In this document: in pieces, positions 693-20,120 of the stretch
How the letters are laid out: every line of letters begins with the position of its first letter
Numbering within the stretch: position 1 is the stretch's first letter
Assembly (NCBI GenBank): GCA_024223125.1
Contig: JAAEOP010000729.1
Coordinates: 1-20,120 of the forward strand
DNA length: 20,120 nt
Source of the DNA: Chloroflexota bacterium
Lineage (GTDB): Bacteria; Chloroflexota; Anaerolineae; Promineifilales; Promineifilaceae
Direction of reading: 5' to 3'
Program-made: the position numbers and the translations under genes
The notes under the pieces: model-generated
The model's database searches: none
What the model saw: only the letters and a program-made list of their open reading frames with translations
What the model was told of the DNA's origin: nothing

Positions 693-2417
693 TTAGTGCG
701 GCTTCAAAAAGCCTTGTTCTATCAAATGATTGACGATTAATCGGGCGTTTTCTTCGGCCGAATGATTAATTGTCTCAATCCGAATTTCGGGGTGACGTGG
801 CGCTTCGTAGGGATCATCAATCCCGGTAAAACCGGAAACTAACCCCTGGCGAGCCTGAGCATACAACCCTTTGGTGTCTCGATGTTCACATATATCCAAA
901 GGTGTGTCTACAAATACCTCAATATAATGACCCTGATCAAATCCACCGCGCACATCATTCCGAGTGGCCCGGTAAGGGGAAACGGCCGCACAAATAGCCA
1001 GACCACCATGCCGGGTAATTTCAGAAGCCACATACCCAATACGCCGCACATGATCATCCCGGTCTTCTTTGCTATAGCCCAACCCCTCACTGAAGTGGGT
1101 ACGCACCACATCCCCATCGAGTAGGGTTACATTACGGCCGTGTTCCTGTAACAGCGTAGTTAAGACAGCGGCCGTGGTAGATTTTCCCGCATTGTGCAGC
1201 CCCGTAAACCAGAGACAAGCCCCCTGACGGTAACGTGGTGGGTATGTTTCATACAAGATTTCAGCCACCGGATGGCGAGTAAACCAGGCTGGCAGAAGTC
1301 GGCCGTTGTGCAAATATTCTTCCCGCACCTGCGTACCAGAAATTGAAGCCGTTTTCATCTCTGGCGTCACACTGGTAATTTCTTCATACCGTTCTTCTTC
1401 CGGCAAATAAACCAACATACGGAAAGGTACAACTGTTACCCCAATCTCTTCACTAAAGCTTTCCACTAAATCCTGGGCATCATACGGCCCATAAAACGGA
1501 TTGCCTTCAGAGTCACTGCCTGGCCCGGCATGGTCGCGTCCCACAATGAGGTGATTGGCCCCATAATTACGGCGAATAATAGCGTGCCATAACGCTTCAC
1601 GCGGGCCGCCCATTCGCATCGCTAACGGCAGCAATGAAAGCAAAATCCGATCGGGATCATAATGATTGGCAGCCAACGCTTTATAAGTACGTACACGGGT
1701 AAAATAATCCACATCCCCCGGTTTGGTCATGCCCACCACCGGATGCAGCAGCAAAACGCCATCCTTTTCCTCGATAGCCCGCTTGGTGAGTTCTTCGTGC
1801 ACCCGGTGCATCGGGTTCCGGGTTTGGAAGGCGACCACATTTTCATGGCCGTATATTTCCAATTTGGCGCGGGTTTCGGCCGGAGTCATCCGTATATTTT
1901 TGAAGTCGTAATGTGACGGCTGTTTCAAAACTTGTAACGGGCCAGAGATGTTTCGCTTACCCCAACGGTGCATTTCCGCCACTGTCGGATGGCGCAGGTC
2001 TGTGGAGCCAAATGCTTTCAGGGCTATTTCTTCCTGGCTCCATTCATACACTTCTTCCACTGTCATAATGGCCAGAATTTCATTCTGCGGGTCGCGCAAA
2101 GCCACATCCTGCCCAATTTCAACAATAACGTCATCATCAATTGGCAGGGGAATGGGCATGGGGAAAACGAAACCATTTGCCAGGCGCATCGTGTCCAGAA
2201 CGCTCTGATGATCGGCCTCTCCCATAAACCGGTCTAAGGGCGAAAAAGCGCCCACAGCCAATAATTCCAGGTCACATACCGCCCGGTCTGACAGTCTGAT
2301 AGAAGGAAGACGATTGGCATAATCGCTTAACTCTTCCAGGGATTCTGCGGGCACAAGCAGGTTAACCAGCTTGCCCCCGTATGGTGAAATAAGGGTTGAT
2401 TCTTTTGTTGCTAACAT
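693..2417 (-). CDS. sat: Bifunctional ATP sulfurylase / APS kinase
   Basis: Makes APS from sulfate and ATP (N-terminal sulfate adenylyltransferase, about residues 1-390) and then PAPS (C-terminal APS kinase, about 398-574); cytoplasmic. The sulfurylase signatures are present: QTRNP (198-202), HRVH (204-207) and GRDHAGPG (293-300). The kinase domain has the P-loop GLHNAGKS (406-413), LDGDVVR and FTGIDDPYEAP, so both halves look active. The reading frame extends to a TTG at 2444, but that codon lies inside the U-tract of an intrinsic-terminator-like hairpin. The ATG at 2417, preceded by AGAGGA, gives a normal sulfurylase N-terminus (574 residues) and is preferred. This Sat-CysC fusion is known from thermophilic and other bacteria. 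With the kinase downstream and a sulfotransferase nearby it points to PAPS supply; no PAPS reductase is visible. Confidence 0.95.
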   Translation of the reverse strand: MLATKESTLISPYGGKLVNLLVPAESLEELSDYANRLPSIRLSDRAVCDLELLAVGAFSPLDRFMGEADHQSVLDTMRLANGFVFPMPIPLPIDDDVIVEIGQDVALRDPQNEILAIMTVEEVYEWSQEEIALKAFGSTDLRHPTVAEMHRWGKRNISGPLQVLKQPSHYDFKNIRMTPAETRAKLEIYGHENVVAFQTRNPMHRVHEELTKRAIEEKDGVLLLHPVVGMTKPGDVDYFTRVRTYKALAANHYDPDRILLSLLPLAMRMGGPREALWHAIIRRNYGANHLIVGRDHAGPGSDSEGNPFYGPYDAQDLVESFSEEIGVTVVPFRMLVYLPEEERYEEITSVTPEMKTASISGTQVREEYLHNGRLLPAWFTRHPVAEILYETYPPRYRQGACLWFTGLHNAGKSTTAAVLTTLLQEHGRNVTLLDGDVVRTHFSEGLGYSKEDRDDHVRRIGYVASEITRHGGLAICAAVSPYRATRNDVRGGFDQGHYIEVFVDTPLDICEHRDTKGLYAQARQGLVSGFTGIDDPYEAPRHPEIRIETINHSAEENARLIVNHLIEQGFLKPH

Positions 2418-2442
2418 AGGTCCTCTATTCTTGCCAACTCTC

Positions 2443-2487
2443 AAAAAAAAGCAGCCCTACCTTTTGCTTGGGGCAGGTGGGCTGCTT
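2443..2487 (-). terminator. Intrinsic terminator / attenuator in the sat leader
   Basis: AAGCAGCCC (2449-2457) plus ACCT (2459-2462) pair with AGGT (2475-2478) plus GGGCTGCTT (2479-2487), giving 13 bp with one bulged base and a 12-nt loop. On the minus strand the stem is followed by eight U residues. It lies only 26 nt before the sat ATG and downstream of a good promoter at 2628-2655, so it would stop transcription before sat unless relieved. That placement suggests an attenuator. The alternative is that it simply ends the lipoprotein transcript. Confidence 0.75.
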
Positions 2488-2531
2488 GTATGATTTGAAA
2501 GTTACAGCTTATGATTTTGTAATCGTGACTA

Positions 2532-2551
2532 CTTGTGCAAGACTGCACAAG
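2532..2551. promoter_or_regulatory. Inverted repeat in the sat leader, possible operator
   Basis: CTTGTGCA (2532-2539) and TGCACAAG (2544-2551) form a perfect 8-bp palindrome with a 4-nt centre. The 10-mer ACTTGTGCAA at 2531-2540 recurs exactly at 2646-2655, where it covers the -35 box of the sat promoter. A recurring half-site with one copy on the promoter is typical of a regulator binding site. As RNA, the palindrome would also form a hairpin in the leader. Confidence 0.45.
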
Positions 2552-2602
2552 CATTGGTTACGTTAAATATAAAATCTTACATGCAGTCTAACATAAAAAT
2601 AG

Positions 2603-2620
2603 CATTGTCCGCTGACAATG
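2603..2620 (-). promoter_or_regulatory. Leader hairpin close to the sat transcription start
   Basis: CATTGTC and GACAATG pair perfectly (7 bp) around a 4-nt loop, immediately downstream of the predicted sat transcription start on the minus strand. It is part of a leader of about 200 nt that holds three hairpins before the sat ATG. It resembles no riboswitch class that I can recognise. Confidence 0.4.
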
Positions 2621-2627
2621 CATCTCC

Positions 2628-2655
2628 ATTGTACGCCATTTACCAACTTGTGCAA
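2628..2655 (-). promoter_or_regulatory. Promoter of the sat/cysC unit
   Basis: On the minus strand, TTGCAC (2655-2650) and TACAAT (2633-2628) are separated by 16 bp, a good housekeeping-sigma match. Transcription should start near 2621, giving a 5' leader of about 200 nt. The -35 box lies within an exact copy of the ACTTGTGCAA repeat (2646-2655), so a factor binding the repeat would compete with RNA polymerase. Confidence 0.6.
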
Positions 2656-2671
2656 TGATCACCAGTCAACT

Positions 2672-3241
2672 TTATTCTTGTGGCAAAACTACAGAATCGT
2701 AGAAATATCCAACGCGAGGCATAGACATTTCACCCTCACCGGGTAAGATATCGTCTTCAGTAAGGCTGACTGTTGTAACATCGGCCGTTACTCCCACTCG
2801 GGTACCTGGTTGAAGGGCTGTCACAGGAATAGAAAAAGCGCCATCTGAGTCAATAACACCAGACCCTAATTCTTCTCCCATAAAAGTCATATTCAAAACA
2901 TATATTGTTAAGCCTGGCGGGCCAACACCAGTAACGGCCGTGTCGGTAGATTGCACCGGTCTATCAAAAGCCAATAAGATGGCATTTGGATTTAAGGCTG
3001 GGTATGCGATCTGGGGCGCGACGGCCGTTGGCGGGGGATACGTCTCTGGAGTTACTACGGCCGTTGGCGGCGGATAGGCCTCCTGAGAAGTCCCCGTATC
3101 TGGCGATGGCGATGGAACTGATTCAACTTCCTGTTGATCTGGAGTGACTGGCGTTGGTGTGGACGTATCTTCATTACCACAAGCTGCCAACAACAGTACA
3201 AATGTCAGCAAAATAAGTTTTCGCAATTGACTATTAACCAT
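2672..3241 (-). CDS. Secreted lipoprotein of unknown function
   Basis: A 189-residue protein with a type II signal peptide: a positive N-terminus, a hydrophobic run (about 8-17) and lipobox LAAC with Cys21 as the predicted lipidated residue. It should be anchored on the outer face of the membrane. Residues about 25-80 are a Thr/Ser/Pro-rich linker containing tandem 12-residue repeats around YPPPTAV. The C-terminal ~110 residues are predicted beta-rich (LTIYVLN, GAFSIPV and GTRVGVTADVTT stretches) and may be a small Ig-like or carbohydrate-type sandwich, but I do not recognise the family. ATG start with AAGGAAG upstream. It lies between the sat leader and the terminator of the repeat protein upstream. 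Confidence 0.8.
   Translation of the reverse strand: MVNSQLRKLILLTFVLLLAACGNEDTSTPTPVTPDQQEVESVPSPSPDTGTSQEAYPPPTAVVTPETYPPPTAVAPQIAYPALNPNAILLAFDRPVQSTDTAVTGVGPPGLTIYVLNMTFMGEELGSGVIDSDGAFSIPVTALQPGTRVGVTADVTTVSLTEDDILPGEGEMSMPRVGYFYDSVVLPQE
3021..3092 (-). repeat. Tandem 36-bp coding repeat in the lipoprotein linker
   Basis: Two copies of a 36-bp unit lie in tandem, each carrying ACGGCCGTTGGCGG (plus strand, beginning at 3021 and 3057). They encode the repeated YPPPTAV linker; a third, degraded protein copy (IAYPALNP) follows. Each unit contains one ACGGCCGT octamer, which encodes Thr-Ala-Val. The repeat probably arose by slippage or recombination and sets the length of the surface linker. 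Confidence 0.65.
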
Positions 3242-4987: not shown

Positions 4988-6541
4988 ATGTTAACTACCG
5001 GAAACAAGCAACCTGATATTCTACTGTTGGTATTAGACACCCAACGAGCCGACAAGCTTTCTTGTTATGGCTATGGCGTGGAAACATCTCCAAATCTGGA
5101 TCGATTGGTCAATGATGGGGCGACACAATTTTCAAAGGCAGTGGCGCCAGCCCAATGGACTGTCCCCAGTCACGCATCGCTGTTTACCGGCCTTTATCCG
5201 TCGCAACATTCGTTAGTTCAAATGGATGCTGCTTTGCCTTCACCTGTTGTTACGTTGGCCCAACGCTTGCGCCAGGCAGGGTATTTTACGGCCGGATTTT
5301 CCCACAATCCCTTAATCGGCCGTGTTCCCAACAACTTAAATCGAGGATTCATCAATTTTCAGAATTACAACACACCTGGGGCGGGGTTGTTGGCATTTCA
5401 ATTTGACAAGGACAAAAAGCTGCCCACTGTCTCAACGCGAATGAAGCATTACGGCCGTTTCCTCATAGCCGAGTCACTTGGTTATAGCCAAACATCCCCA
5501 TTACAACATTTATCAATGGTAGGCCACCCATTGTGGAACAAGTTACAGCATCTTACCAAACGATCTAAAGCAGCTCTGGCAACTAAATCATTACAAGACG
5601 CCGCCCACATCTTAATAAACAGGCCTGGGTTAACATCAGAGCAGCCTGCTTTTGTATTCATGAATTTAATGGGAACCCATACGCCTTATGCGCCTTCTTC
5701 AGAAAAGCTCCGCAGATTTTTGCCAGAACGATTGGGAAGTAAACATGCCCGCCAATTTCAACAGATGGTCAATCGCTGGCAGGTAAATATTGATAATTGG
5801 TTAGATATGCCTTTTGTCCATGAAGCGTTGGAAGCGATCTTACACGCTTTTTATGATGCCGAAGTGGCCGAACAGGATGCGAAGCTGGGGAAATTCTTTG
5901 ATACATTGAAACACAATCATGCGTGGGAGAATTTGTTGGTTGTGGTTATGGCTGATCATGGCGATCATTTGGGAGAAAAGAAGCGGTTGAACCATGCTTT
6001 TGGCGTCTATGAGCCTTTGGTTCATGTACCCCTGATTGTACGCGACCCCGAAGGACAGTTCACCAATGGCACGGTTCAAGAGCAGGTTGTCTCTACGCGG
6101 CAAGTTTTCCATACTTTGTTAACGGCCGTAAATGTCGCCACTCCAGAAGAAGAAAAACTGTCCCTACAAAATTCTGCCAACAGCGCTCCCGAACTGATCT
6201 TAGCGGAAGGACACCCCATCGAATGGGCTTTACAGCGATTAAAACAAAATCGGCCTGAGATAATCAACCCACAACAGGCGCATAAACCAGCCTATGGCAT
6301 TTTTGCCAAAGGACATAAGTTGATTACCATCGGATCACGCCAGGAACTATATGACCTGCAAGAAGATAATCTGGAAACAAGTGATTTAAGTCAGCAGCAG
6401 CATGATTTAAGGCGGGATTTATACAACTTGCTGCAAACTCAATTGGCGCAAATGACCCCGGTTGTTGCAGAAGTAGAACGCCGAGATGTGGAAGATGAAA
6501 TCGTTTTGGCGCAGTTACGCCGCCTGGGATACCTGGAGTAA
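4988..6541 (+). CDS. Sulfatase-fold (alkaline phosphatase superfamily) enzyme, Thr-type
   Basis: A 517-residue metal-dependent hydrolase or transferase of the sulfatase/phosphatase superfamily. Metal-site segments are LDTQRADKLSCYGYG (16-30, Asp17), MADHGDHLGE (321-330, Asp323/His324) and NHAFG (His336); the C-terminus RRLGYLE is typical of the family. At the nucleophile position the sequence is WTVPSHASLFTG with Thr58, where true sulfatases have Cys or Ser of the C/S-x-P-S-R motif that becomes formylglycine. Thr is used by phosphoglycerol-transferase-like members, so desulfation is not assured. No signal peptide or membrane segment is seen, so it is probably cytoplasmic. ATG start with a weak ribosome site. 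It ends 2 bp before the sulfotransferase gene, which makes a two-gene unit likely. Confidence 0.88.
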   Translation: MLTTGNKQPDILLLVLDTQRADKLSCYGYGVETSPNLDRLVNDGATQFSKAVAPAQWTVPSHASLFTGLYPSQHSLVQMDAALPSPVVTLAQRLRQAGYFTAGFSHNPLIGRVPNNLNRGFINFQNYNTPGAGLLAFQFDKDKKLPTVSTRMKHYGRFLIAESLGYSQTSPLQHLSMVGHPLWNKLQHLTKRSKAALATKSLQDAAHILINRPGLTSEQPAFVFMNLMGTHTPYAPSSEKLRRFLPERLGSKHARQFQQMVNRWQVNIDNWLDMPFVHEALEAILHAFYDAEVAEQDAKLGKFFDTLKHNHAWENLLVVVMADHGDHLGEKKRLNHAFGVYEPLVHVPLIVRDPEGQFTNGTVQEQVVSTRQVFHTLLTAVNVATPEEEKLSLQNSANSAPELILAEGHPIEWALQRLKQNRPEIINPQQAHKPAYGIFAKGHKLITIGSRQELYDLQEDNLETSDLSQQQHDLRRDLYNLLQTQLAQMTPVVAEVERRDVEDEIVLAQLRRLGYLE

Positions 6542-6543: not shown

Positions 6544-7392
6544 GTGACAATCACCAAAGAAGTAGATAAGTCTACGACAATCATCTTTTTGCACATACCG
6601 AAAACGGCCGGATTGACTTTATATGAGATTTTGAATCGGGAATACGGCCGCAACTACATTTACACATTTGTCGGCGGCCGGCAGCGTTTACAGCAATCAA
6701 TGGACTCTTTTGCCGGGCAAACAGAAACAGAACGGGCCAACTACCGTCTGCTGCGCGGGCACACCCCTTTTGGCATACACAACCTGGTTCCAGGGCCAGC
6801 CACTTACATCACATTCCTTCGCGATCCCATCAAACGGGTTGTTTCACACTATTACTACGTCAAGAACAACCCGCATCATTTACTACATGAAGCCGTCACA
6901 TCCCAGAATATGAGCTTGCAAATGTATCTGTCTAGCGGCATCAATTATGAGTTGGACAATGGACAGACGCGCCAATTGGCTGGTATAACGGATGAAATAC
7001 CATATGGCGCTTGTGACCAGGAATTACTAGACCAGGCTATTGTCAATATAGACAGATGTTTTTCATTGGTTGGCCTGACAGAACGGTTTGATGCGTCACT
7101 GCTCATCATGCAGCGCCTGCTTGGCTGGCACAAGACGCCACTTTATGTGCGCCAAAATGTTTCACGATCCCAGTCGGCTCGCCCAGAATTGTCTGCTGAA
7201 ACGAGGCAACTGATTGAACAATACAACGATTTAGACAGGGCTTTATATGCTTACGGCCGTACACGCTTCACCGCCCTTCTTAAAACAATTGGGGAAATAG
7301 AGATGCGGCGCTTCAATCAACTAAATCGTCTTTACTATCCTTTTGGCAAATTACAATCTGTCATTCGCACTAACTTGCGTAAACTTCTTTGA
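6544..7392 (+). CDS. PAPS-dependent sulfotransferase (sulfotransfer_2-like)
   Basis: Transfers sulfate from PAPS to a hydroxyl or amine acceptor, by family usually a carbohydrate or lipid. The 282-residue protein shows the 5'-phosphosulfate loop HIPKTAGLTL (17-26), an RGHTPFGIH segment (71-79) like heparan/2-O-type sulfotransferases, and the 3'-phosphate motif FLRDPIKRVVSHYYY (91-105) with Arg93 and Ser101. No signal peptide, so it would act in the cytoplasm where PAPS is made. The GTG start lies 2 bp after the preceding TAA with GGAG inside the end of that gene, indicating translational coupling. It is the only clear consumer in this window for the PAPS made by sat/cysC. The acceptor is not evident from sequence; the neighbouring glycan locus is the natural candidate. 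Confidence 0.9.
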   Translation: MTITKEVDKSTTIIFLHIPKTAGLTLYEILNREYGRNYIYTFVGGRQRLQQSMDSFAGQTETERANYRLLRGHTPFGIHNLVPGPATYITFLRDPIKRVVSHYYYVKNNPHHLLHEAVTSQNMSLQMYLSSGINYELDNGQTRQLAGITDEIPYGACDQELLDQAIVNIDRCFSLVGLTERFDASLLIMQRLLGWHKTPLYVRQNVSRSQSARPELSAETRQLIEQYNDLDRALYAYGRTRFTALLKTIGEIEMRRFNQLNRLYYPFGKLQSVIRTNLRKLL

Positions 7393-7418: not shown

Positions 7419-8555
7419 TCAAGAACCATCAGACGCCAAACCACGTTTCACCAATTCCTGTTCAGCAATATGAGAATGATCTTGCCAATGTTGTCTCCTC
7501 AAATCTGCCAATAAATTATCAATCCCCGCTGAGAATGTTATTTGAGGATTGTACCCCAGCAATTTTCTGGCCAGGGTTAAATCGGCCGTGCAATGACGAA
7601 TGTCTCCGGCTCGATATTGTCCGCTGATAATTAGCTCTGGCCCGCCGAACTTTTCGGTCACAATCTGAGCAATTTGCAGCAAGGTTAACGCTTCGCCGGA
7701 GCCGACATTGAAGATTTTGCCAACGGCCGCCTCCTGTTCCAGCGCCAATTCACACGCCTGAACCACATCCTGAATATGTACAAAATCCCGGCTTTCCCGT
7801 CCGTCTTCATACACCGGGATCGCCCGGTCATTTTTCATCCGGGTAATAAAGGTACTTATAACGCCGGTGTACGGATTACTTAATGACTGACGCGGTCCAT
7901 AAACATTGAAAAAACGTAAAACAACTACCGGGATATTGTATGTTTCCCCAATGAGCAAACACACCTGCTCCTGGTTTTGTTTACTGATGGCGTAGATGGA
8001 ATAAGGGGCGGCTGTTGTCTCTTCGGATGTGGGCTGCGATTGAACAGCACGGCCGCAATTCGGGCAAACAACTTCCCAGCGGCCGTCTCGCAACTGGTCA
8101 ATTGGGCGGGGGGCTGGATGAACCAGACCGCACTGTGGACAATTGCCAACGCCTTCCCCATAAACAGCCCGCGAAGAAGCCAGCACAAGACGTTTTATGC
8201 TGTTCTTTTGTTCGCTGAGAAGTTCCATCAACACGGCCGTGCCCCCCACATTCACATCCAGATACTCGCTAATCTGGTACATGGATTGTCCCACACCTGT
8301 ATAAGCGGCAAAATGATAAACGGTCGTTTTCCCAACCAAAGTCTCGCGCAAAACTTCCTTGTCCCGTATATCCCCTTGAATCACCCGCACCCGATCATCC
8401 AGATAATCGGGAATTTTTCGCATTTGCCCATGCACCTGTGGATGCAAAATATCCAAGACCGTCACCTGATGTCCAGCTTTCAGCAGCGTGTCAGCCAGAT
8501 GGGAACCGATGAATCCCGCACCGCCAGTAATTAACACATTTTCACTCATCTTCAT
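7419..8555 (-). CDS. NAD-dependent sugar epimerase, dTDP-rhamnose 4-epimerase-like
   Basis: An extended short-chain dehydrogenase of 378 residues acting on a nucleotide sugar. It has the Rossmann motif GGAGFIGS (11-18), the catalytic Ser in ASSRAVYGE (about 126-134) and YAISK (Tyr188-Lys192). Between Ser and Tyr lies an insertion of about 45 residues with two Cys pairs, CPQCG (139-143) and CPNCG (164-168), that looks like a zinc ribbon. A similar Cys-bearing insertion is known in WbiB-type dTDP-L-rhamnose 4-epimerases, so a 6-deoxyhexose precursor is the likely substrate; UDP-sugar epimerase is the alternative. The ATG overlaps the flippase stop (TAATG), so it is the last gene of the glycan operon and translationally coupled. 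Confidence 0.88.
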   Translation of the reverse strand: MKMSENVLITGGAGFIGSHLADTLLKAGHQVTVLDILHPQVHGQMRKIPDYLDDRVRVIQGDIRDKEVLRETLVGKTTVYHFAAYTGVGQSMYQISEYLDVNVGGTAVLMELLSEQKNSIKRLVLASSRAVYGEGVGNCPQCGLVHPAPRPIDQLRDGRWEVVCPNCGRAVQSQPTSEETTAAPYSIYAISKQNQEQVCLLIGETYNIPVVVLRFFNVYGPRQSLSNPYTGVISTFITRMKNDRAIPVYEDGRESRDFVHIQDVVQACELALEQEAAVGKIFNVGSGEALTLLQIAQIVTEKFGGPELIISGQYRAGDIRHCTADLTLARKLLGYNPQITFSAGIDNLLADLRRQHWQDHSHIAEQELVKRGLASDGS

Positions 8556-12001: not shown

Positions 12002-13425
12002 CATTTCATTTCTACCGGTAGATATAGTTGATGGGGTAAAAACGTATCCATAATATGCCACCGTAATTGGTTATGCTTTTCCGGCTCTTGCCCAATGAGA
12101 TTATTTTTTTCGTAGATGGATGCCGTTTGTAATTGATAGAGTTGGCTGGCAGTTGGCTGGTTGAGATGATGTATATATTTCCAACCATCCAAATTAACAG
12201 AGCGTAAATCATCTGGCGGAGATGCCCAAAAAAGAGGATTGTCCGGATCGACAACAGCGTCTACTTCGCTGTAAATCGGCCGTGATGACGTATACGGCCG
12301 TGACCCTTCAATGAACGGCCGTAAGCTAACAGCCTGTAAATTCGTGGGCATAGAAAGTCCAACATAATCCAAAATAGTAGGCATCAAATCCATCGTTTGT
12401 ACGGGAACTGTCACTGCCAGACCCGGTGAAATGACACCTGAATAACGCATGAGCATGGGGACACGGACAACTTCCTCATACAAGGAGCCAGCATGTGACC
12501 ATTCGCCATGCTCCCCCAACATCTCACCATGATCTGTGGTCACGATGATGAGTGTATTTTGCATCAAATGACGACTTTCCAATTCATCCAATAATTGCCC
12601 CAGGTAAAAATCCCAATACGTTATTTCACCATCATAAAGGGCATTTAGATATTGCAGATCACGGGCGGACAATACCAGTTGGCCAGACTTTGCCGTTTCG
12701 CCGTGACCAAAAATAGCCGGGGTCAGGGTTCCGGTATAGGCAGCGTCATAGAGGATATCGTAAGGGGGCGGCGGATCGTACTCGGTGTGGGGATCGAAGT
12801 AATAGGTAAACAAAAAGAGCGGCTGAGAGCCGCTTATTACCGGCGTCCAACTAGCACTTAACCAATCCGTCACCAGGAGATTCAGGTCAGCAGCTCGAAC
12901 CGGTCCATTCGTGTTGTTATTGGCAAGGCCATCATCATAATGATCAAAACCCTGATTAAAACCGAGGTCTCCACGAATACAATATGGTCGGCTGGTGAAA
13001 CCGGCGGTGTAATAACCAGCCTCATGCAAATATTCAGCTAATGTTTTTTCGCTGTCCGGCAATGTGTCCCCAATCGTTTCCCAGGAGGCACCGGTTTCTG
13101 AAGGAATACGGCCGGTCATGAGAGCGGCATTGGAAGGACATGTCCACGGAGAACTGGTGTGGGCTTCAAAACGGACGCCTTCTTGGGCGATACGGCCGTC
13201 TAAATGAGGCGTAGTTGGTCGGGCATATCCATAAGTGGAAACGTGATTAATCCTCAAGGTGTCTACAATGATCAAAATGATGTTAGGCAGCGTTGTTCGC
13301 TCATCGGCCGCCATCACATTGTTGTTATTGGTTCCAAAATGGCCCAGCAACATGATTGTCACCATCAGCAAACTGAGTCCGAAGAGGATGACGCCGATGT
13401 TGATAAGTTGCCGCTTTTTGTTCAT
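12001..13425 (-). CDS. Membrane-anchored sulfatase-fold enzyme, Thr-type
   Basis: A 474-residue alkaline-phosphatase-superfamily protein with one N-terminal membrane segment (about 8-28), so the catalytic domain should face outside the membrane. Metal-site segments are IIVDTLRINH (Asp55), TTDHGEMLGEHGEWSHAG (DHG 298-300, His311) and YFDPHTEYDPP. The nucleophile region reads PWTCPSNAALMTG: Thr95 is at the catalytic position and the neighbouring Cys96 is at the x of C-x-P-S-R, so formylglycine conversion of the canonical kind is not expected. Start at ATG 13425 has a perfect AGGAGG with 8-nt spacing; the longer frame to 13482 overlaps the preceding gene and is not preferred. It lies inside the glycan locus, 26 bp after the multispanning transferase. 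May hydrolyse sulfate or phosphate esters, or transfer phospho groups to the glycan. Confidence 0.87.
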   Translation of the reverse strand: MNKKRQLINIGVILFGLSLLMVTIMLLGHFGTNNNNVMAADERTTLPNIILIIVDTLRINHVSTYGYARPTTPHLDGRIAQEGVRFEAHTSSPWTCPSNAALMTGRIPSETGASWETIGDTLPDSEKTLAEYLHEAGYYTAGFTSRPYCIRGDLGFNQGFDHYDDGLANNNTNGPVRAADLNLLVTDWLSASWTPVISGSQPLFLFTYYFDPHTEYDPPPPYDILYDAAYTGTLTPAIFGHGETAKSGQLVLSARDLQYLNALYDGEITYWDFYLGQLLDELESRHLMQNTLIIVTTDHGEMLGEHGEWSHAGSLYEEVVRVPMLMRYSGVISPGLAVTVPVQTMDLMPTILDYVGLSMPTNLQAVSLRPFIEGSRPYTSSRPIYSEVDAVVDPDNPLFWASPPDDLRSVNLDGWKYIHHLNQPTASQLYQLQTASIYEKNNLIGQEPEKHNQLRWHIMDTFLPHQLYLPVEMK

Positions 13426-13451: not shown

Positions 13452-15032
13452 TTAATTGCAGGGAGGCAAATGATAAACCCACATATGGATTGTTTCGGCC
13501 GAAAGGAAAGAGCCGCTAAAACTTTCTACCAGACAATTTGCGGCCGTAAATGATTCCCGCGCGGCCACATCTTCGGCCGACATTTTTGTGGAATTGTTGC
13601 CTGCTTCGCTTAACACCAGATATTGCACCCCTTGTTCACGATACCATTCCGGTGGATTATGATGTAGATGCTGCACCTTTAATACCGGCCACACGGCCGT
13701 GTCCACATTCGGCGAAAAATATTCCATGGCAATCCCAGTGCCTGACGATAAGTTACTCTCAATCCAGCGTTGGGTTTGGCTGCGTACATCATCCCCATTT
13801 AATCGTTGGTTTACGGCCGTTGATTGAAACAACAAGGGCAAAAATATGAGTAAAAAGAGTACACTTCCGCTCACCCGTTTTACCCATAACGTCCAAGAGA
13901 AATGGTCTAACCTGGCCAACAACCAATCCAATAACAACGCCGCCCAAGCAACAAAGATAGGCGCCGATGGTAGCCACATCCGCGCTTCGCGGCGTGTCTG
14001 GCTCACAATTGCCAGCCATAACACCATCACAAAACTATTCACCAACAACGCCCGCGACCAACCCCAATGACGCCAACTTAAAAGGAAACCTACCAAACCA
14101 GCAAAAAAAATGAACGCATTAGGACTGCTAATATGATAGTTTAAGTGCCACTGCCAACTTGTGCCTACAATATTTTGAGCCGGCGAATTGTACAATCGCA
14201 ATGAATACCCAAACCAGTACAAAAATTTTGGCAAGTTGAGAACAACATATGGTGTTCCCATTAAGAACCCAGCGCCCATCGCTATTGGCCCGGCTAACGT
14301 TCGCATGTTTACTAGATCATCCAGTTTTTTTGCTTTTAAGAAGGGGAGCGCCAGGAGAGGAACGGCTAAGGCCACCCCATTGTATTTGGTTGAAGCAGCT
14401 AATCCGCAAACCAAACCGGCCCCAGCATATGGCCACAAGCTGTCTTGTTCCCAACGGTCAAATACGCGCACAAGCAGGTAAAGTCCCAACAAGCTCCAAA
14501 ATGTTAATGCTGTATCGGTGGTAGCAAAATGACTGTGGGTGACTAAGGCGGGCAGCACGGCCGCTAATGCCGCGGCCATCAATCCCTGTCGCCGGTTACC
14601 TAAACGAGCCGCCAACATGTAAAGCGCCAACACAATACCCATCCCAAACATAACGGACACCAACCGGGCAGCCACAAAATATTCAGGATGATTGGCGACA
14701 GCCGGAAACGCACCCCTCTCATAAATAGACAAATCAGCCGGGAACTCAATAAACCCATTCCGGGCTGATTGCACAAACGTTAGGGCAGACACGGCCGCTA
14801 ACAAATAAATATGAAACGTGCCGTACTCCATTCTTGTTGGTTCTAAATTCCCAGTTTTAATCATCGTCAGAGCCGGCATCACCACCGCGTCTTCATCAGG
14901 ATGATATAGATTAGGCAGGCCAAAGTTAATTCCCCAAAGGCGTAAACCAAGCGCCAACAATAAAATGCCGCTTAACAACAGTTGCAGCTTGTACTTTTGC
15001 ATGATTAAACTGCTTCGTTCTACTAACTTCAA
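13452..15032 (-). CDS. Multispanning glycosyltransferase (GT39/ArnT-like)
   Basis: An integral membrane protein of up to 526 residues with about 10 hydrophobic segments, resembling the dolichyl-phosphate-mannose or ArnT-type GT-C transferases that use polyprenyl-phosphate sugars on the outer face of the membrane. After the first segment comes LYHPDED (HPDE about residues 44-47), the acidic first-loop motif expected in this superfamily. A soluble tail of about 100 residues follows the last membrane segment. Start: TTG 15032 overlaps the GT4 stop by 4 nt, whereas ATG 15002 gives 516 residues and a conventional N-terminus; neither has a strong ribosome site. It probably adds a sugar to a lipid-linked glycan or a surface protein; the acceptor cannot be read from the sequence. 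Confidence 0.82.
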   Translation of the reverse strand: MKLVERSSLIMQKYKLQLLLSGILLLALGLRLWGINFGLPNLYHPDEDAVVMPALTMIKTGNLEPTRMEYGTFHIYLLAAVSALTFVQSARNGFIEFPADLSIYERGAFPAVANHPEYFVAARLVSVMFGMGIVLALYMLAARLGNRRQGLMAAALAAVLPALVTHSHFATTDTALTFWSLLGLYLLVRVFDRWEQDSLWPYAGAGLVCGLAASTKYNGVALAVPLLALPFLKAKKLDDLVNMRTLAGPIAMGAGFLMGTPYVVLNLPKFLYWFGYSLRLYNSPAQNIVGTSWQWHLNYHISSPNAFIFFAGLVGFLLSWRHWGWSRALLVNSFVMVLWLAIVSQTRREARMWLPSAPIFVAWAALLLDWLLARLDHFSWTLWVKRVSGSVLFLLIFLPLLFQSTAVNQRLNGDDVRSQTQRWIESNLSSGTGIAMEYFSPNVDTAVWPVLKVQHLHHNPPEWYREQGVQYLVLSEAGNNSTKMSAEDVAARESFTAANCLVESFSGSFLSAETIHMWVYHLPPCN

Positions 15033-16198
15033 ATTTGCTTCTCGTTTTGCCAGACTGACAATAATTCTTTGGTTTTAGCCCCGATCGCTGCTATCGTGTT
15101 TTCTTGTACCCGTTCAAAAGCGGCTATCGCCATTTGCCGGCGTAAATCTGGAGTTTGCGCCAGTTCTAAAATTCCGGCCGCCAATGCTTGCGGATTGGCT
15201 CGTTCAACCAGATAAACATGCTTCTTATGCTTCAATTCTGCCTGTATCGTTTCCGCATCGCCGCTGATAACCGGCCGCTGCATCATCATCCCTTCCCAAA
15301 TTTTGTTTTGAATGGTGCAGCGCGATTGTTTTGTGGTACCGAATACACCCAGGACGACATGGGATTGAGCGATTTGGGCTGGTAGTTCTTCTTTATCTAT
15401 CCAACCGCGGAAGTGAACATTATCCAGATTTAACTCGCGGGCTAACTGTTCGGCCGACGGCCGTTCCTGCCCATCCCCATAAAAATCAAACTGGATTTGG
15501 GGTTGGTCTTGCAATGCGGCCGCCGCCCGAATCATCGTTTCCACTCCATGCAAAGGAATGAAGGTGCCGTAATAAATGATGCGGAAATAATCTTGTGGCG
15601 GCCGTAAATCTGGACGCGGTCGGTAAATGCGGTCGTCTACCCCCAACGGAACTAGGCTAAACTTCTCCGGTTTCAAATCGTACTTCTCACAATAATATTC
15701 CCGGTATTCAGGCGTATCGGCTATGAGGAGATCGGGTAATTTTAAGCTGCCTTTCTCCAACCAGAAAATTAACTTTCCGCTAATAGGGCTTTTTTGTGCC
15801 AATCCCCGTTCCTCGGCAATCAAATGCAAAGACATAAGAATATCTAATGCCATCGGTTTACGCCGCCACCAGGAAAGCAACCGTCCCAAATACACATCAA
15901 ACTGACCCGGATACCCGACCAGCATAATGTCATATTCCGGGGTGTGACGATGGGCTTGAAAGAGTCGCCAATATGCCTTGATAACCCTTTTGAAAAATCG
16001 AGGACTTTTCCAACCGCCGCCCGCCTGTGCCACCCGGTCGGCAACGCTATGCCACAAAGGGCTGTGACACTCCTCCACAATGGCTCCATTTTGGCGCAAT
16101 CCGGCAATGATGACCTGATTACGCACGTAATTGGCCCGGTAAGTACCAAAAAAGCAGAGGCGCAACGGCCGTGTTTGTTCATCTAAAATTTTATCCAT
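15029..16198 (-). CDS. Glycosyltransferase family 4
   Basis: A retaining GT-B glycosyltransferase of 389 residues. The N-terminal half has LRLCFFGTYRANYVRNQ; the C-terminal donor domain has VPLGVDDRIY, IIYYGTFIPLHGVETMI, FYGDG and KIWEGMMMQRPVISGD, the usual GT4 landmarks. It is the first gene of the glycan operon. The frame extends to TTG 16249, but ATG 16198 is only 9 nt from a TATAAT box and has no Shine-Dalgarno, so a leaderless or nearly leaderless mRNA is likely. Its stop overlaps the start of the next gene. Likely adds a sugar to the lipid-linked repeat unit at the cytoplasmic face; the specificity is unknown. Confidence 0.9.
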   Translation of the reverse strand: MDKILDEQTRPLRLCFFGTYRANYVRNQVIIAGLRQNGAIVEECHSPLWHSVADRVAQAGGGWKSPRFFKRVIKAYWRLFQAHRHTPEYDIMLVGYPGQFDVYLGRLLSWWRRKPMALDILMSLHLIAEERGLAQKSPISGKLIFWLEKGSLKLPDLLIADTPEYREYYCEKYDLKPEKFSLVPLGVDDRIYRPRPDLRPPQDYFRIIYYGTFIPLHGVETMIRAAAALQDQPQIQFDFYGDGQERPSAEQLARELNLDNVHFRGWIDKEELPAQIAQSHVVLGVFGTTKQSRCTIQNKIWEGMMMQRPVISGDAETIQAELKHKKHVYLVERANPQALAAGILELAQTPDLRRQMAIAAFERVQENTIAAIGAKTKELLSVWQNEKQI

Positions 16199-16207
16199 AG
16201 GCGGCAA

Positions 16208-16770: not shown

Positions 16771-16809
16771 AAAAAACGGCCGTCAAACTGCAAAGTCTGA
16801 CGGCCGTTT
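16771..16809 (-). terminator. Rho-independent terminator of the etf operon
   Basis: A perfect 12-bp stem, AAACGGCCGTCA (16774-16785) with TGACGGCCGTTT (16798-16809); inside it, ACT/AGT can pair around a GCAA tetraloop. On the minus strand it ends in six U residues. It lies 42 nt past the etfA stop. Each arm contains one complete ACGGCCGT octamer. Confidence 0.85.
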
Positions 16810-16850: not shown

Positions 16851-17825
16851 TCAACCAAGTCGTTTCTGGAATTCGGCCGTAAGCGCCGGAGCCACCTTAA
16901 ACAAATCGCCCACAATGCCATAATGGGCCAGTTTGAAGATAGGTGCATCCGGGTCTTTATTGACAGCTACAATGATCTTAGATGTCCGCATACCGGCCTG
17001 ATGCTGAATAGCGCCGCTGATGCCACAAGCAATATACAAATCCGGGCTGACCGTTTTACCCGTCTGTCCGACCTGATGATCGTAGGGAATCCAACCCGCA
17101 TCTACGGCCGCGCGCGAAGCTCCCAACGCGCCACCCAATGTATCGGCCAACGCTTGCACCGACGCGAACCCTTCTGCACTGCCTACGCCACGGCCGCCAG
17201 AAACGATGATGCTGGCATCAGTCAGACTAACTGTACCTTCTTTGCCTTCAAAACCGACAACTTTGGCGTTGATGTCATCTTCAGCCACCACAGCGTCACT
17301 CCATTGGGCGGAACCGCTGCCGCCGGTAGATTCTGCCTGGGGGAAAGCCCGGCTGCGTAAAGTGATAATTTGCGTACCGGCCGTGATGTGAACATCGGCT
17401 AATAATTTACCGGCGTACACGGGGCGGGTCACTTTAACTGTGCTGCCATCCACCTGCACATCAATAGCGTCGGCAATGACGCCGGCATCCAAATCAGCGC
17501 CCAGCCAGGCCGCCAGATCACGGCCGTGTGTACTGCCACCAATAATAATCACGGCCGGATCATGTTCCTGCGCCAGTTTCGTGATTAACGGGCCGGCCGC
17601 TTCCACACGAAAATCGGCCAGGGTGGCGTCATCCGCGCCTAACACAGCATCCACACCCAGATCAAAAGCGGCATCGGCTACGCCAGAAACATCTGATCCC
17701 AAAACGAGACCAGTCACTTGTTGGTCCAAATCGGCAGCCACTTTACGGGCCGCCCCAATCGCTTCCTGGGCTGCAGCCGGAATGGTGTCATTTTTACTTT
17801 CTACAAATACCCATACGCCGCTCAT
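16851..17825 (-). CDS. etfA: Electron transfer flavoprotein, alpha subunit
   Basis: The FAD-binding subunit of the soluble ETF heterodimer, which accepts electrons from acyl-CoA and related dehydrogenases and passes them to the membrane quinone oxidoreductase. 324 residues, normal length. The N-terminal domain has VWVFVE and the GGSTHGRDLA segment (about 96-105). The C-terminal FAD domain has SGGRGVGS (209-216), ASRAAVDAGW (236-245), QVGQTGKTVSPDLYIACG (251-268), SGAIQHQAGM (270-279) and NKDPDAPIF (289-297). ATG 17825 overlaps the etfB stop by 4 nt (ATGA). Followed by a strong terminator. No dehydrogenase or ETF-quinone oxidoreductase gene is in the window. Confidence 0.97.
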   Translation of the reverse strand: MSGVWVFVESKNDTIPAAAQEAIGAARKVAADLDQQVTGLVLGSDVSGVADAAFDLGVDAVLGADDATLADFRVEAAGPLITKLAQEHDPAVIIIGGSTHGRDLAAWLGADLDAGVIADAIDVQVDGSTVKVTRPVYAGKLLADVHITAGTQIITLRSRAFPQAESTGGSGSAQWSDAVVAEDDINAKVVGFEGKEGTVSLTDASIIVSGGRGVGSAEGFASVQALADTLGGALGASRAAVDAGWIPYDHQVGQTGKTVSPDLYIACGISGAIQHQAGMRTSKIIVAVNKDPDAPIFKLAHYGIVGDLFKVAPALTAEFQKRLG

Positions 17826-18622
17826 ATTACCTTCTCCTCGAATAACCTGTCGGCCAAAATGCGGACCTGTTCTTCTACGCTGTCGGCTTCAATAATTTCC
17901 ACACTGCCTTCACGGGGCGGAATGGCATACACTTTAGACCAATCCACTTTGCTGGCGGCCGCTCCCGTTTCACCATCCACAGACAGGTCGCCGGCGTTCC
18001 AGGTGGGAATCTTGGCCCGGTTGGCTTTACGGATACCCATGAGGGAGGGATAACGGGGTTCGTTAATCTCTTTGACGACGCTGATAACTACCGGCAAATT
18101 GGCCGTAATTATCTCTCGGCCGTCGTCCAGCAAACGTTCAACCGTAATCTGACCATCAGTCACTTCTTTGATGGCCGAGACATAGGTGAGCGGCGTCCAA
18201 CCTAATTGTCGGGCTACCTGCATGGGGGTCAGACCAGTATCGCCGTCAATAGCTTGTTTGCCAAAGATGGCAATATCTACATCCCCAATGTTATTGATGG
18301 CGGCGGCCAAAATACGGGCTGTGCCCAGCGTATCGCTGCCACTAAAGCTGGTATCAGAAACAAGAACAGCGCCGGTACAACCCATCGCCAGACTGGTTTT
18401 GAGCGCATCCTGACTTTCTGCGGGACCGGCCGTCAGAACAATGACATCTGAGGCGCCATGATTTTCTTTGAAGCGCACGCCTTCTTCCACGGCATACTCA
18501 TCCCAAGGATTGAGGACGTTGGGCTTGCCACCGGGATCATCCCAGCTTACATGTCCGCTCTCGTCTACGGTGAGTACGGCCGTCGTACTGGGCGTCTGTT
18601 TAATACATACAACTGCTTTCAT
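17822..18622 (-). CDS. etfB: Electron transfer flavoprotein, beta subunit
   Basis: The AMP-binding partner of EtfA; the two form the soluble ETF. 266 residues from ATG 18622, which has GGAGG 7 nt upstream and gives the family's typical MKAVVCIKQTP start. The longer open frame to 18679 starts in a hairpin and is not preferred. Motifs: NPWDEYAVEEGVR (about 38-50), the nucleotide loop GKQAIDGDTG (121-130), and the ETF beta signature around NEPRYPSLMGIRKANRAK. It appears to be a standard electron-carrying ETF; nothing visible shows the bifurcating type. Translationally coupled to etfA. Confidence 0.96.
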   Translation of the reverse strand: MKAVVCIKQTPSTTAVLTVDESGHVSWDDPGGKPNVLNPWDEYAVEEGVRFKENHGASDVIVLTAGPAESQDALKTSLAMGCTGAVLVSDTSFSGSDTLGTARILAAAINNIGDVDIAIFGKQAIDGDTGLTPMQVARQLGWTPLTYVSAIKEVTDGQITVERLLDDGREIITANLPVVISVVKEINEPRYPSLMGIRKANRAKIPTWNAGDLSVDGETGAAASKVDWSKVYAIPPREGSVEIIEADSVEEQVRILADRLFEEKVI

Positions 18623-18684: not shown

Positions 18685-19197
18685 TTAGATTTCCATTAAC
18701 AACGGTTCGTTGATTTCACGGAACCGTTGGCTAAATGTCTCATTTTCAAAGGCAAATGTAGTTGCCCGCCAAGTAAAGTTTTCGATGCGGGCGGCGTTTA
18801 AGACGGCTTGTTTTGGGGGCAGATATGTTTTACGAATCTGGCGTTTGAAGAAGGCATGCGTTACGGTCGTAGCCATTATCGTCCCCAAGCCCACCATCAA
18901 CAAACGCAGTAGAAACGGCAAACTGGCCGGGGCCACAAGCAGCCCTATGCCTAACAACAAAAGGAAGACAGCCCCGCTTATGAGCCAATCCATCTTTTGC
19001 AATCGCTCTTCAGCGGCCGATTTGTAGTTGATGTGGGCAGCGCAATCTGTACAAACGGGAACGCCGATTAAACGGGTAATACGGCTGATCCGTTTTTTTA
19101 CCGGCATGATGTAGGGGGCAGGACGGCCGCAGTGGGAGCAGATGCCAGGAAAAGTAACAGTTTGTTGGGGACGGACTTTAATTTTAACCAGGACCAT
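18685..19197 (-). CDS. Zinc-ribbon membrane protein of unknown function
   Basis: 170 residues. The N-terminal domain has two Cys pairs, CSHC (20-23) and CTDC (49-52), a likely zinc ribbon in the cytoplasm. Two hydrophobic segments follow (about 71-90 and 92-112), then a soluble tail of about 55 residues with aromatic-rich NFTWRATTFAFENETF. I do not recognise a named family. It is the first gene after a strong promoter and precedes etfB by 62 bp, so it is probably co-transcribed with the ETF genes; whether it works with them is unknown. ATG start at 19197 with a weak ribosome site. Confidence 0.8.
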   Translation of the reverse strand: MVLVKIKVRPQQTVTFPGICSHCGRPAPYIMPVKKRISRITRLIGVPVCTDCAAHINYKSAAEERLQKMDWLISGAVFLLLLGIGLLVAPASLPFLLRLLMVGLGTIMATTVTHAFFKRQIRKTYLPPKQAVLNAARIENFTWRATTFAFENETFSQRFREINEPLLMEI

Positions 19198-19232: not shown

Positions 19233-19261
19233 ATTATAACGAGGTCGGTCAGGTGAAGCAA
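19233..19261 (-). promoter_or_regulatory. Promoter of the zinc-ribbon/etf operon
   Basis: On the minus strand, TTGCTT (19261-19256) and a perfect TATAAT (19238-19233) are separated by 17 bp. The start near 19226 gives a leader of about 29 nt. No other promoter is evident before etfB, so this one probably drives all three genes. Confidence 0.65.
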
Positions 19262-19314
19262 TACGACGCAGTGCGTTATGAGTTTTAGGGAGACAATCTC
19301 ATTCAGATGTTTTT

Positions 19315-19342
19315 TTGAACCAACGGCCGTCTGGCATATAAT
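19315..19342 (+). promoter_or_regulatory. Promoter of the 101-residue gene
   Basis: TTGAAC (19315-19320) and a perfect TATAAT (19337-19342) are separated by 16 bp. The spacer contains an ACGGCCGT octamer (19323-19330). The start near 19349 gives a leader of about 27 nt with AGGAG before the ATG. Confidence 0.65.
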
Positions 19343-19375
19343 CGCGCCGATTTTCACAAAAGGAGATATTCGTTC

Positions 19376-19681
19376 ATGAGAACTGGAAAATGGTTACGCT
19401 TTGCAGGCGCTTTACTTTTATTATTTGTGGCGACCGCGCCAACGGCCGTGTTAGCTAAAGAAGGCGGTCACAATCAAACTACAACCCATATGGTTTATCA
19501 GGATGGGCACGAAGATGAAAGTGCCGAAGAAGTGTCCGCTACGGGTGATGGGGTAGGTTTTGTATTGACATTGATTGCGTTCATTATTGGTTTAATTATC
19601 GCGGTGGTGGCTATCGTGGGAGCCGTGGGGTTAGGTCTTATTGGCATTGGGTATGCTTCGGTAAATGCGGAAGAAGGGTAG
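19376..19681 (+). CDS. Small secreted/membrane protein of unknown function
   Basis: 101 residues. It begins with a signal-peptide-like region (positively charged MRTGKWLR, a hydrophobic core, and VLA-K at about 25-28). A short polar, His- and acid-rich stretch follows (HNQTTTHMVYQDGHEDESAEE). The C-terminal half is strongly hydrophobic and Gly-rich (about 59-95), long enough for one or two membrane spans. Good promoter, AGGAG ribosome site and ATG support expression. I recognise no family. The polar His/Asp/Glu stretch outside the membrane might bind metal, but this is speculation. Its 3' end abuts the truncated helicase-like remnant on the other strand. Confidence 0.75.
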   Translation: MRTGKWLRFAGALLLLFVATAPTAVLAKEGGHNQTTTHMVYQDGHEDESAEEVSATGDGVGFVLTLIAFIIGLIIAVVAIVGAVGLGLIGIGYASVNAEEG

Positions 19682-19686
19682 TAACC

Positions 19687-19830
19687 CCTCCGTAGCCAAC
19701 CAAAACTAATAAAGTTCATACCCCGGTCATAATGTACAGAACCCGAGAGTGAAGGCATGTAAACATCAGCGACCATATCGGCCGTAGACATATCCACTGT
19801 TACCGGAAGGTGAAGGTTTTTTAGCGACAT
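19687..19830 (-). pseudogene. Truncated N-terminus of a PLD-like helicase protein
   Basis: About 48 codons from ATG 19830 (with AGGTGA upstream) read MSLKNLHLPVTVDMS, then a block centred on DVYMPSLSGSVHYDRGMNF and FGWLRR. This matches from memory the N-terminus of bacterial DEAD/SNF2 helicases with a phospholipase-D-like front domain, whose members show a Y-P-L-S-YDRGVGFFS-WL pattern. The resemblance stops at about 19687. Beyond that the frame runs antisense to the 101-residue gene and has no helicase features. It begins 45 nt after the stop of the minus-strand gene upstream, as a normal operon partner would. I read it as a decayed or truncated helicase gene; a translated short protein is possible. 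Confidence 0.45.
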
Positions 19831-19874
19831 CTCGTTATCACCTGGGTTTTGTATTGAACCAAGCTGACTAGAAA

Positions 19875-20120
19875 TCAATCCAACCCGGCCCTGTCCAACC
19901 GGCGCAGCAAGGCACTGCGACGCGAATATGTTGAGCGCAAACGATGCAGGCGGGCTGCATAAGCCGGTTCTGTTCCCTGGTAGATGGCTAGATCGTGTAA
20001 TTTTGTTAGCAATTGTACTGCCTTGTCATAGGGTTTGGCCTGACCTTCCTGGATGAGTTGATCAACGGCCGTCCACGTCTCCTCTGCTTTAGGGGCCAAC
20101 GCTTCCATCTGCCGCTTACG
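19875..20120 (-). CDS. C-terminal end of a probable SWIM zinc-finger protein (partial)
   Basis: The open frame runs off the right edge, so only the last 81 residues are visible. The tail has AKPYDKAVQLLTKLHDLA, then AYAARLHRLRSTYSRRSALLRRLDRAGL. The pattern YD-AV-LL-LRDLA ... F-RL-LR-RKPSL-RRLD-AGL is, from memory, the C-terminus of uncharacterised bacterial SWIM zinc-finger proteins. The zinc finger itself is outside the window, so the call is tentative. Such genes are often next to SNF2-type helicases, which fits the helicase remnant directly downstream. Confidence 0.5.
   Translation of the reverse strand, partial: RKRQMEALAPKAEETWTAVDQLIQEGQAKPYDKAVQLLTKLHDLAIYQGTEPAYAARLHRLRSTYSRRSALLRRLDRAGLD

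Follow-up and report, generated by a model that had tools for sequence, protein, structure and literature searches.

The octamer ACGGCCGT belongs to the highly iterated palindromes of the HIP1 kind, has the core CGGCCG, and is common to one order of Chloroflexota. In these uncultured bacteria it stands in nearly every gene-permitted place and is a new, extreme counterpart of HIP1. Our preferred reading, which we consider reasonably probable, is that a NotI-type methyltransferase, in most genomes solitary, writes the site, and that a weak and uniform force maintains it. The window referred to below is the whole stretch of Chloroflexota DNA analyzed (20,120 nt), and the genome-wide figures come from relatives of its bacterium, whose genomes are labeled G001 and so on.

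Among the titles and abstracts listed in searches of the open-access PMC literature, preprints excluded, none described the ACGGCCGT palindrome in Chloroflexota, which is weak evidence of absence because of that open-access, preprint-free scope. What HIP1 does remains a matter of dispute. This second strong case lies in another phylum and has outer-base switches, bare-core genomes, a candidate methyltransferase, and polar flanks; it therefore becomes possible to test which features track the enzyme and which the site.

The palindrome in the window

The initial annotation had counted 23 octamers by hand against an expectation of about 0.3, and our count reproduced both this number and every coordinate. 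ACGGCCGT was the most frequent octamer in the window; base composition predicts 0.26 copies, and an order-2 Markov model that masks CGGCCG predicts 0.31 (Poisson log10 p -34). The core CGGCCG, previously estimated at several dozen copies, occurred 74 times versus 6.6 expected. A maximal-order Markov model predicted 22.7 octamers, and the outer two bases are therefore independent in the window once CGGCCG is given. The primary unit within the window is thus the hexamer CGGCCG, with a preference for A/T at the outer bases.

Nineteen of the 23 copies lie inside listed ORFs and four outside them (16776, 16800, 19323, and 20065). The ORF copies are spread over three frames (nine Thr-Ala-Val, five xAC-GGC-CGT, and five Arg-Pro), in agreement with the earlier statement that different reading frames are involved. 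Scans of the window for tRNAs and Rfam families gave no matches. The ACGGCCGT copies, for which no strand is assigned, are as follows.

1134..1141, ATP sulfurylase/APS kinase ORF, His-Gly-Arg
2934..2941, Thr-Ala-Val
3021..3028, Thr-Ala-Val
3057..3064, Thr-Ala-Val
5451..5458, sulfatase ORF, Tyr-Gly-Arg
6122..6129, Thr-Ala-Val
7253..7260, Tyr-Gly-Arg
8233..8240, Thr-Ala-Val
9268..9275, Arg-Pro frame
12294..12301, Arg-Pro frame
12315..12322, Arg-Pro frame
13192..13199, Asp-Gly-Arg
13693..13700, Thr-Ala-Val
13813..13820, Thr-Ala-Val
15457..15464, Arg-Pro frame
16165..16172, Arg-Pro frame
16776..16783, outside listed ORFs; pairs with the 16800 copy as a 12-bp inverted repeat
16800..16807, outside listed ORFs
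17520..17527, ETF alpha, His-Gly-Arg; the column holds the octamer in 7/19 loci including the window
18576..18583, ETF beta, Thr-Ala-Val; the column holds the octamer in 18/20 loci including the window
19323..19330, outside listed ORFs
19442..19449, Thr-Ala-Val
20065..20072, outside listed ORFs

Distribution across the order

At least 1000 octamer copies were present in 31 of the 56 genomes of the order that were examined (maximum, 15,176), and the reversed pattern occurred only 4-459 times in these genomes. The whole genomes G001-G008 carried 7,598-15,176 copies each, 25- to 116-fold above the reversed pattern, rather than the near-Markov counts that the initial annotation had named as the outcome contrary to its claim. 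The density in relatives was 1-2 per kb; as in HIP1-type systems, a palindromic octamer exceeds its expectation tens-fold, with hundreds to thousands of copies per Mb. The excess is confined to one Chloroflexota order as far as sampled: all 24 of the 396 genomes in our class sample with CGGCCG above 1.5/kb and more than twice as frequent as GCCGGC belong to this order, and a ratio above 2 was found in 4 of 301 genomes in the phylum sample, two of which are in the order list. Masking (N) left the samples of G182, G053, and G416 without an octamer profile, and G402, with 2,887 copies in its genome, had no dominant octamer in its 6.6-kb sample. Copies are also conserved in place, a point that had been proposed for checking: where orthologue pairs kept Thr-Ala-Val (TAV), the site was also kept in 444 of 448 cases (24 gapped positions were excluded from the mismatch classes of this comparison).

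Filling of codon opportunities

In G004, the density of ACGGCCGT was 2.17/kb in coding versus 1.80/kb in intergenic DNA, and the counts in the three frames were 419, 237, and 117 versus 8.6, 3.4, and 1.05 expected from codon use. The excess thus occurs regardless of frame and coding status, as for HIP1; it is not limited to the codon pairs of one frame, and codon use is insufficient to explain it, as had been argued from the window. A codon, amino-acid, or composition bias, a repeat family, or an assembly artefact could draw on Thr-Ala-Val being the commonest frame; every frame and intergenic DNA are affected, however, the excess extends over many genomes and unrelated genes, and the reversed pattern is not raised. 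These observations refute such readings, to which we assign next to no probability.

The octamer spelled 419 of the 437 Thr-Ala-Val tripeptides in G004, and other tripeptides were filled to a similar extent (DGR, 95/104; HGR, 52/59; YGR, 45/50; NGR, 45/56). The scaled strength S was 5.07 for TAV and 4.69 for intergenic DNA, and 5.51, 5.21, 4.58, and 5.68 for YGR, HGR, NGR, and DGR, respectively; codons and intergenic DNA imply a force of similar size, about 5 per site. Filling was 92-96% where the next site lay 32-800 bp away, 81% (26/32) at less than 32 bp, and 16/18 at more than 800 bp. Selection limited by density is therefore unsupported beyond 32 bp. In G004, Thr-Ala-Val itself exceeded the composition expectation 7.7-fold and a dipeptide model 4.1-fold; the filled codon opportunities amount to a DNA signal that reshapes a proteome.

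Outer bases and one-off forms

The outer base differs between lineages, which carry TCGGCCGA, GCGGCCGC, or bare CGGCCG; GCGGCCGC is the octamer of G011, at 136 per 100 kb. G404 instead carries TGCCGGCA, whose core differs from CGGCCG, and this counts against the preferred reading. One-off forms are biased to the end bases, as in HIP1-type systems: 36 of the 40 one-off neighbours of ACGGCCGT in the window change position 1 or 8, and 183 of the 336 one-off forms in G004 change the first or last base. The G004 total compares with 311 expected, with forms raised at the outer bases and T5, and octamer recognition in this genome is nearly all-or-none. In G003, as in the window, one-off forms were raised at the outer bases.

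These data bear on two alternatives. Under the first, the octamer is a DNA uptake or recombination signal, and preference for octamer-bearing incoming DNA fills genomes by molecular drive; the USS of Haemophilus and the DUS of Neisseria are parallels. The similar coding and intergenic force, the density of sites, information that extends into the flanks, and the presence of ComEC in 32 of 33 genomes are consistent with such a signal, but ComEC was found in non-octamer genomes too. Moreover, known uptake signals are non-palindromic and have over-represented one-mismatch forms (PMC1939737), whereas our octamer is palindromic. Its one-off forms are hardly above expectation in G004 as a whole, although the window and G003 have an excess of those that change an outer base. 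We regard this explanation as unlikely.

Equally doubtful is a footprint of methyl-directed mismatch repair (Elhai's GmeC model), in which methylated sites bias repair and the palindrome accumulates without a benefit of its own. MutL was found in 26 of 27 motif-rich genomes, a candidate methyltransferase is present, and the end-base bias of the window's one-off forms resembles that described for HIP1 (PMC4390886). However, the model saturates near 1 site/kb (PMC4390886), in contrast to the filling in G004; A, T, and G as outer bases do not all yield one dinucleotide beside a methylated first C; and the flanking skew described below is not predicted. Neither ComEC nor MutL discriminates as a determinant of the octamer.

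GC-skew inversion around the sites

In octamer genomes, the sites mark the centre of a local GC-skew inversion, from G-rich to C-rich flanks, that reaches to about 40 bp. The same skew was found at ACGGCCGT, TCGGCCGA, and GCGGCCGC, and at TGCCGGCA in G404 (22 copies); within the window it was not resolved. The AT skew was about zero, which speaks against deamination as the cause. No hairpin or extended inverted repeat surrounds the sites, as the left and right flanks were uncorrelated. The view that the skew is a scar left slowly by old sites is unsupported, because sites present in only one orthologue were as skewed as shared sites; orthologues without the site had skews of -0.01 to 0.03 (pairs below 75% identity) and -0.12 to 0.14 (closer pairs). 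The inversion suggests an additional contact or process reaching about 40 bp; methylation does not predict it and alone does not explain it.

An abundant nucleoid or chromosome protein that binds the octamer as a dimeric site with flank contacts would fit a palindrome with uncorrelated half-flanks, the skew on both sides, and the depletion of site pairs 8-32 bp apart (18 gaps versus 42 expected). The nearly all-or-none recognition in G004 argues against such a protein, which we consider quite improbable. The lineage-specific outer base, the near-complete codon filling, and the skew inversion go beyond the initial annotation.

Candidate methyltransferase and its neighbourhood

An orthologue of a DNA methyltransferase of about 690 aa was present in 22 of 23 octamer genomes versus 3 of 10 others (Fisher p 0.0002, kinship within this one order ignored); the association may reflect shared ancestry only. 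The orthologues share 47-62% identity. The enzyme was present in G009, G012, and G016, whose loci read showed no dominant octamer, and was not found in the octamer genome G148. A PF01555 search yielded no orthologue in the bare-hexamer genomes G015, G166, G291, and G361, an absence that is unsure because the match is weak (true members give E values no lower than about 6e-4), and BLAST of the sampled loci, small genome parts, of G148, G166, G291, G361, G015, G017, and G018 yielded none. The predicted model (pLDDT 87.7) had one match among solved structures at E <= 0.001, the DNA methyltransferase CcrM. This best match is an adenine enzyme, which counts against the preferred reading.

Other candidates were set aside. 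PF00145 matches occurred in 16 of 27 motif-rich genomes and were absent from the other 11 (G001-G004, G008, G015, G182, G208, G227, G379, and G393), which speaks against a PF00145 enzyme as the shared writer. In G003 and G004 the PF02086 proteins are of Dam type. An RlmKL identity for the 690-aa protein, which has a weak PF01555 match, was dropped; the RlmKL-like protein is that of G361.

A NotI-family endonuclease gene (PF12183) adjoins the methyltransferase in G005 and G011, that is, in 2 of 16 neighbourhoods, and another gene does so in 14 of 16 (adjacent gene only; upstream neighbours were assigned from Pfam matches or from BLAST hits to a scanned neighbour). Two further pairs of NotI-family protein and methyltransferase were found among the homologues, on contigs of 99,259 and 6,388 bases that the partners presumably share. 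A PDB sequence search with two NotI-like pieces gave no match. Downstream of the methyltransferase, 8 of 24 loci have a gene for the nuclease NurA, and G008 has a HerA-like gene.

Among the functions considered in the initial annotation, a methyltransferase target appears best supported, by this gene neighbourhood. The writer would be the 690-aa amino-group methyltransferase of a NotI-type restriction system, which in most genomes seems to stand without an adjoining endonuclease gene, and its predicted target is NCGGCCGN with the host's own outer base. Judging from the sequences, the modified base would be cytosine, because GCGGCCGC contains no adenine. Methylated octamers may serve a chromosome process such as strand marking, repair, or end processing, and a weak, uniform benefit or conversion bias (about 5 per site, scaled) would capture near-sites that drift within reach.

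A further reading, inverse restriction or self-marking, is distinctly unlikely. The NotI-type-methylated octamer would protect DNA from, or switch, a nuclease-translocase such as NurA-HerA; mark-poor DNA would be degraded or badly repaired, so that sites would be gained and kept. The G-rich to C-rich flanks would then be a track for a machine that reads strand polarity, and the octamer would change along with the specificity domain under a constant flank rule.

Comparison with known systems

NotI-type restriction-modification shares with our system the core CGGCCG, and in G005 and G011 the methyltransferase also has a NotI-family gene as its neighbour. The two differ in that another gene adjoins in most neighbourhoods, and in that GCGGCCGC, the recognition site of NotI, is abundant rather than avoided in G011. 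Sites of an adjacent endonuclease are normally avoided, which counts against the preferred reading. The USS and DUS are likewise short, genome-wide signals with extended flanks, but they have a non-palindromic, orientation-specific core, unlike the octamer, whose one-off forms are hardly raised in G004. Chi resembles our system in the strand asymmetry, with G-rich sequence beside the octamer, and in the nearby NurA and HerA-like genes; however, Chi has a polar core read on a single strand, whereas the octamer is palindromic, with polarity in the flanks only.

HIP1 (GCGATCGC) is a palindromic octamer that most cyanobacteria, one group apart, carry at 300-2700 copies per Mb; it occurs in coding and intergenic DNA, has kin with altered outer bases (TCGATCGA) or other palindromes, and is linked to methyltransferases (PMC4390886). 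ACGGCCGT is similar in its palindromic form, its coding and intergenic occurrence, and its outer-base variants, and differs in its core, its phylum, its nearly complete codon filling, and its skew to about 40 bp. On a Trichormus plasmid (200 of 366 kb, 128 HIP1 copies), the HIP1 skew was 0.41 and 0.22 at 1-4 bp and 0.03-0.07 at 5-45 bp. The genome-wide excess in relatives upholds the parallel drawn in the initial annotation, and ACGGCCGT is an analogue of the cyanobacterial HIP1, not HIP1 itself.

Abundance and spread of the octamer

The 23 copies of ACGGCCGT counted in the initial annotation were all present in the window, each at the coordinate given for it, and a masked order-2 model yielded 0.31 expected copies; the earlier estimate, for equal base use, was about 0.3. 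The core CGGCCG, which had been put at several dozen, occurred 74 times versus 6.6 expected. The maximal-order expectation of ACGGCCGT was 22.7 (versus 23 observed); since the outer bases appear independent given CGGCCG, the hexamer is primary in the window and the flanking A/T a preference. At 16774-16809 lies a 12-bp inverted repeat, possibly a terminator hairpin; each of its arms is an octamer not contained in the listed ORFs. Positions 51-16249 carry two APS kinase ORFs, two sulfatases, a sulfotransferase, glycosyltransferases and a polysaccharide-export-type protein, and are perhaps a sulfated-polysaccharide locus.

The window's ETF beta shares 80-85% identity with its best Chloroflexota records (labeled Ardenticatenaceae, Anaerolineae, or plain Chloroflexi). 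Among its 226 relatives, 80 were retained; it falls within a clade of ACGGCCGT-rich loci, and ACGGCCGT was the commonest octamer in 20 of the 80. Kin loci carried TCGGCCGA (L031 and L035) or GCGGCCGC (L029). For a 170-aa ORF lacking a Pfam match (18685-19197), 24 of the 80 ETF loci contain relatives. Candidatus Leptofilum is described in PMC10746286 as an activated-sludge filament.

The excess extended genome-wide in relatives: eight related whole genomes (G001-G008) contain 7,598-15,176 copies of ACGGCCGT versus 99-459 of the reversed pattern. At least 1000 copies were found in 22 of 396 genomes sampled from the class, all 22 within the order of the window's relatives, and in 31 of 56 genomes of that order. 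These are mostly fragmentary MAGs whose completeness was not given; ComEC was present in 32 of 33. In the phylum sample, CGGCCG was more than twice as frequent as GCCGGC in 4 of 301 genomes (G002, G053, G324 and G668). CGGCCG was strongly avoided in some class or phylum genomes (47 versus 5,432 for the control in G446; 27 versus 5,815 in G478), as would be expected if GGCC or CGGCCG were a restriction target.

Filling and conservation of sites

Genes were called as the longest ORFs. In 400 kb of G004, 854 copies of ACGGCCGT were found versus 16.2 expected (order-2), at 2.17/kb in genes and 1.80/kb in intergenic DNA. The 24 one-off forms totaled 336 versus 311 expected; those with T in position 1 rose most (3.7x), followed by A in position 8 (2.5x) and T in position 5 (2.2x). 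The claim that codon use alone is insufficient was borne out, as the three frames lay 49-, 69- and 111-fold above codon usage, and 6-, 20- and 47-fold above expectation given the protein sequences. Spacing was near random (variance/mean 0.84-0.97), with too few gaps of 8-32 bp (18 versus 42 expected).

Thr-Ala-Val was encoded as ACGGCCGT in 419 of 437 cases in G004 (400 kb), 95 of 97 in G003 (100 kb) and 8 of 8 in the called genes of the window, versus 2 of 14 in G011, which has another octamer; six control tripeptides were close to expectation. Assuming equilibrium, the scaled strength of the force per site (S) was 4.6-5.7 in codons (log-odds versus motif-free codon usage) and 4.7 from the intergenic excess. 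With the next site at a distance of 32-800 bp, 92-96% of opportunities were filled; at shorter distances the count was 26 of 32, and at longer ones 16 of 18.

Copies were also conserved between relatives, a check that had been called for. Across 355 reciprocal orthologue pairs from 16 genomes, which are not independent, the partner of a site was exact in 656 cases, one-off in 35, two-off in 115, further off in 491 and gapped in 24. Where Thr-Ala-Val was retained, so was the site in 444 of 448 cases; Thr and Ala codons outside sites were unchanged in 49% and 51% of cases, respectively. In ETF beta, Thr-Ala-Val occupied one column in 18 of 20 loci, counting the window, and all 18 encoded it as ACGGCCGT; in ETF alpha, 7 of 19 loci had the octamer at one column.

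Octamer variants and flanking GC skew

Genomes with T as the outer base carried 135 (G013) and 158 (G014) octamers per 100 kb; at 97% and 95% of them, respectively, the adjoining base was one of A and T. The G-type genome G011 had 136 per 100 kb, followed by C in 72%. Four genomes (G166, G291, G361 and G015) had CGGCCG at 3.2-5.4/kb without a single dominant octamer. In G404 (L322-L324), the control pattern TGCCGGCA was itself highly iterated (3,665 copies versus 14 of ACGGCCGT). The commonest octamer of L041 (Thermoflexales) was GATCGATC, 12 in 12 kb versus 0.17 expected, with no clear flank skew.

Around G004 sites, the 5' flank of the strand was rich in G and the 3' flank in C. GC skew was 0.51 at 3-4 bp, 0.26-0.33 at 5-12 bp, 0.20 at 13-20 bp, 0.14 at 21-30 bp and 0.08 at 31-45 bp, with AT skew of about zero; it was larger at third codon positions and similar in intergenic DNA. 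No comparable profile was seen in G004 at CGGCCG outside the octamer or at the more frequent of the control palindromes, and the skew was largely missing from orthologues without the site. It was present in all A-, T- and G-type sets tested except the window, where 23 copies did not resolve it (0.12±0.14, 0.08±0.10 and 0.13±0.11 over 3-12 bp), and was weaker in G001 (0.29, 0.05 and 0.14 over 3-12 bp; 175 copies). At TGCCGGCA, skew was seen at 22 copies of G404 (0.43, 0.27, 0.24 and 0.16 over 5-30 bp) and 9 of L021, but not at 6 of L010. In the bare-hexamer genomes it was missing or weak (up to 0.22 at 3-4 bp in G166).

Candidate methyltransferase and comparison with known systems

A candidate DNA methyltransferase of ~690 aa carries the motifs DPMMGGGT and TDPPY and has an extended central region (21 sequences in alignment A1). 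The 33 genomes searched for it included 23 octamer genomes, of which 22 had it; it was also present in G009, G012 and G016, and was not seen in G148, G010, G015, G017, G018, G166, G291 or G361. Some copies were interrupted or truncated: split over two frames (G014), in pieces on two contigs (G227), or truncated at a contig end (G325) or at the edge of the examined stretch (G264). A structure search returned CcrM alone at E ≤ 0.001, with a low whole-chain TM-score of 0.15. The enzyme tree grouped loosely by octamer type (4 changes versus a shuffled mean of 5.9; 1 of 200 shuffles as low).

A NotI-family gene (PF12183) lay upstream in G005 (152 bits) and G011 (42 bits), both partial reads at the edge of the stretches; the family is widespread (4,500 proteins at E ≤ 1e-5), and NotI cuts GCGGCCGC. 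NurA lay downstream in 8 of 24 loci (a 69-aa piece in G007), and in G008 a HerA-like gene came next. The neighbors in G003 were genes for a P450, an MFS transporter and an adjoining HNH endonuclease (loci L362 and L363 for G008 and G003).

The candidate NotI-type enzyme is probably the writer of the sites. ACGGCCGT appears to work like HIP1 of cyanobacteria, as a palindrome across the genome linked to a candidate methyltransferase. In Elhai's GmeC model (PMC4390886), methyl-directed mismatch repair biases palindrome gain; filling beyond the needs of repair, together with the skew, would call for more than such a repair footprint. In contrast to the broad skew at the octamer, the 128 HIP1 copies in the 200 kb examined of a 366-kb Trichormus plasmid had a skew of 0.41 and 0.22 within 4 bp and of 0.03-0.07 at 5-45 bp.
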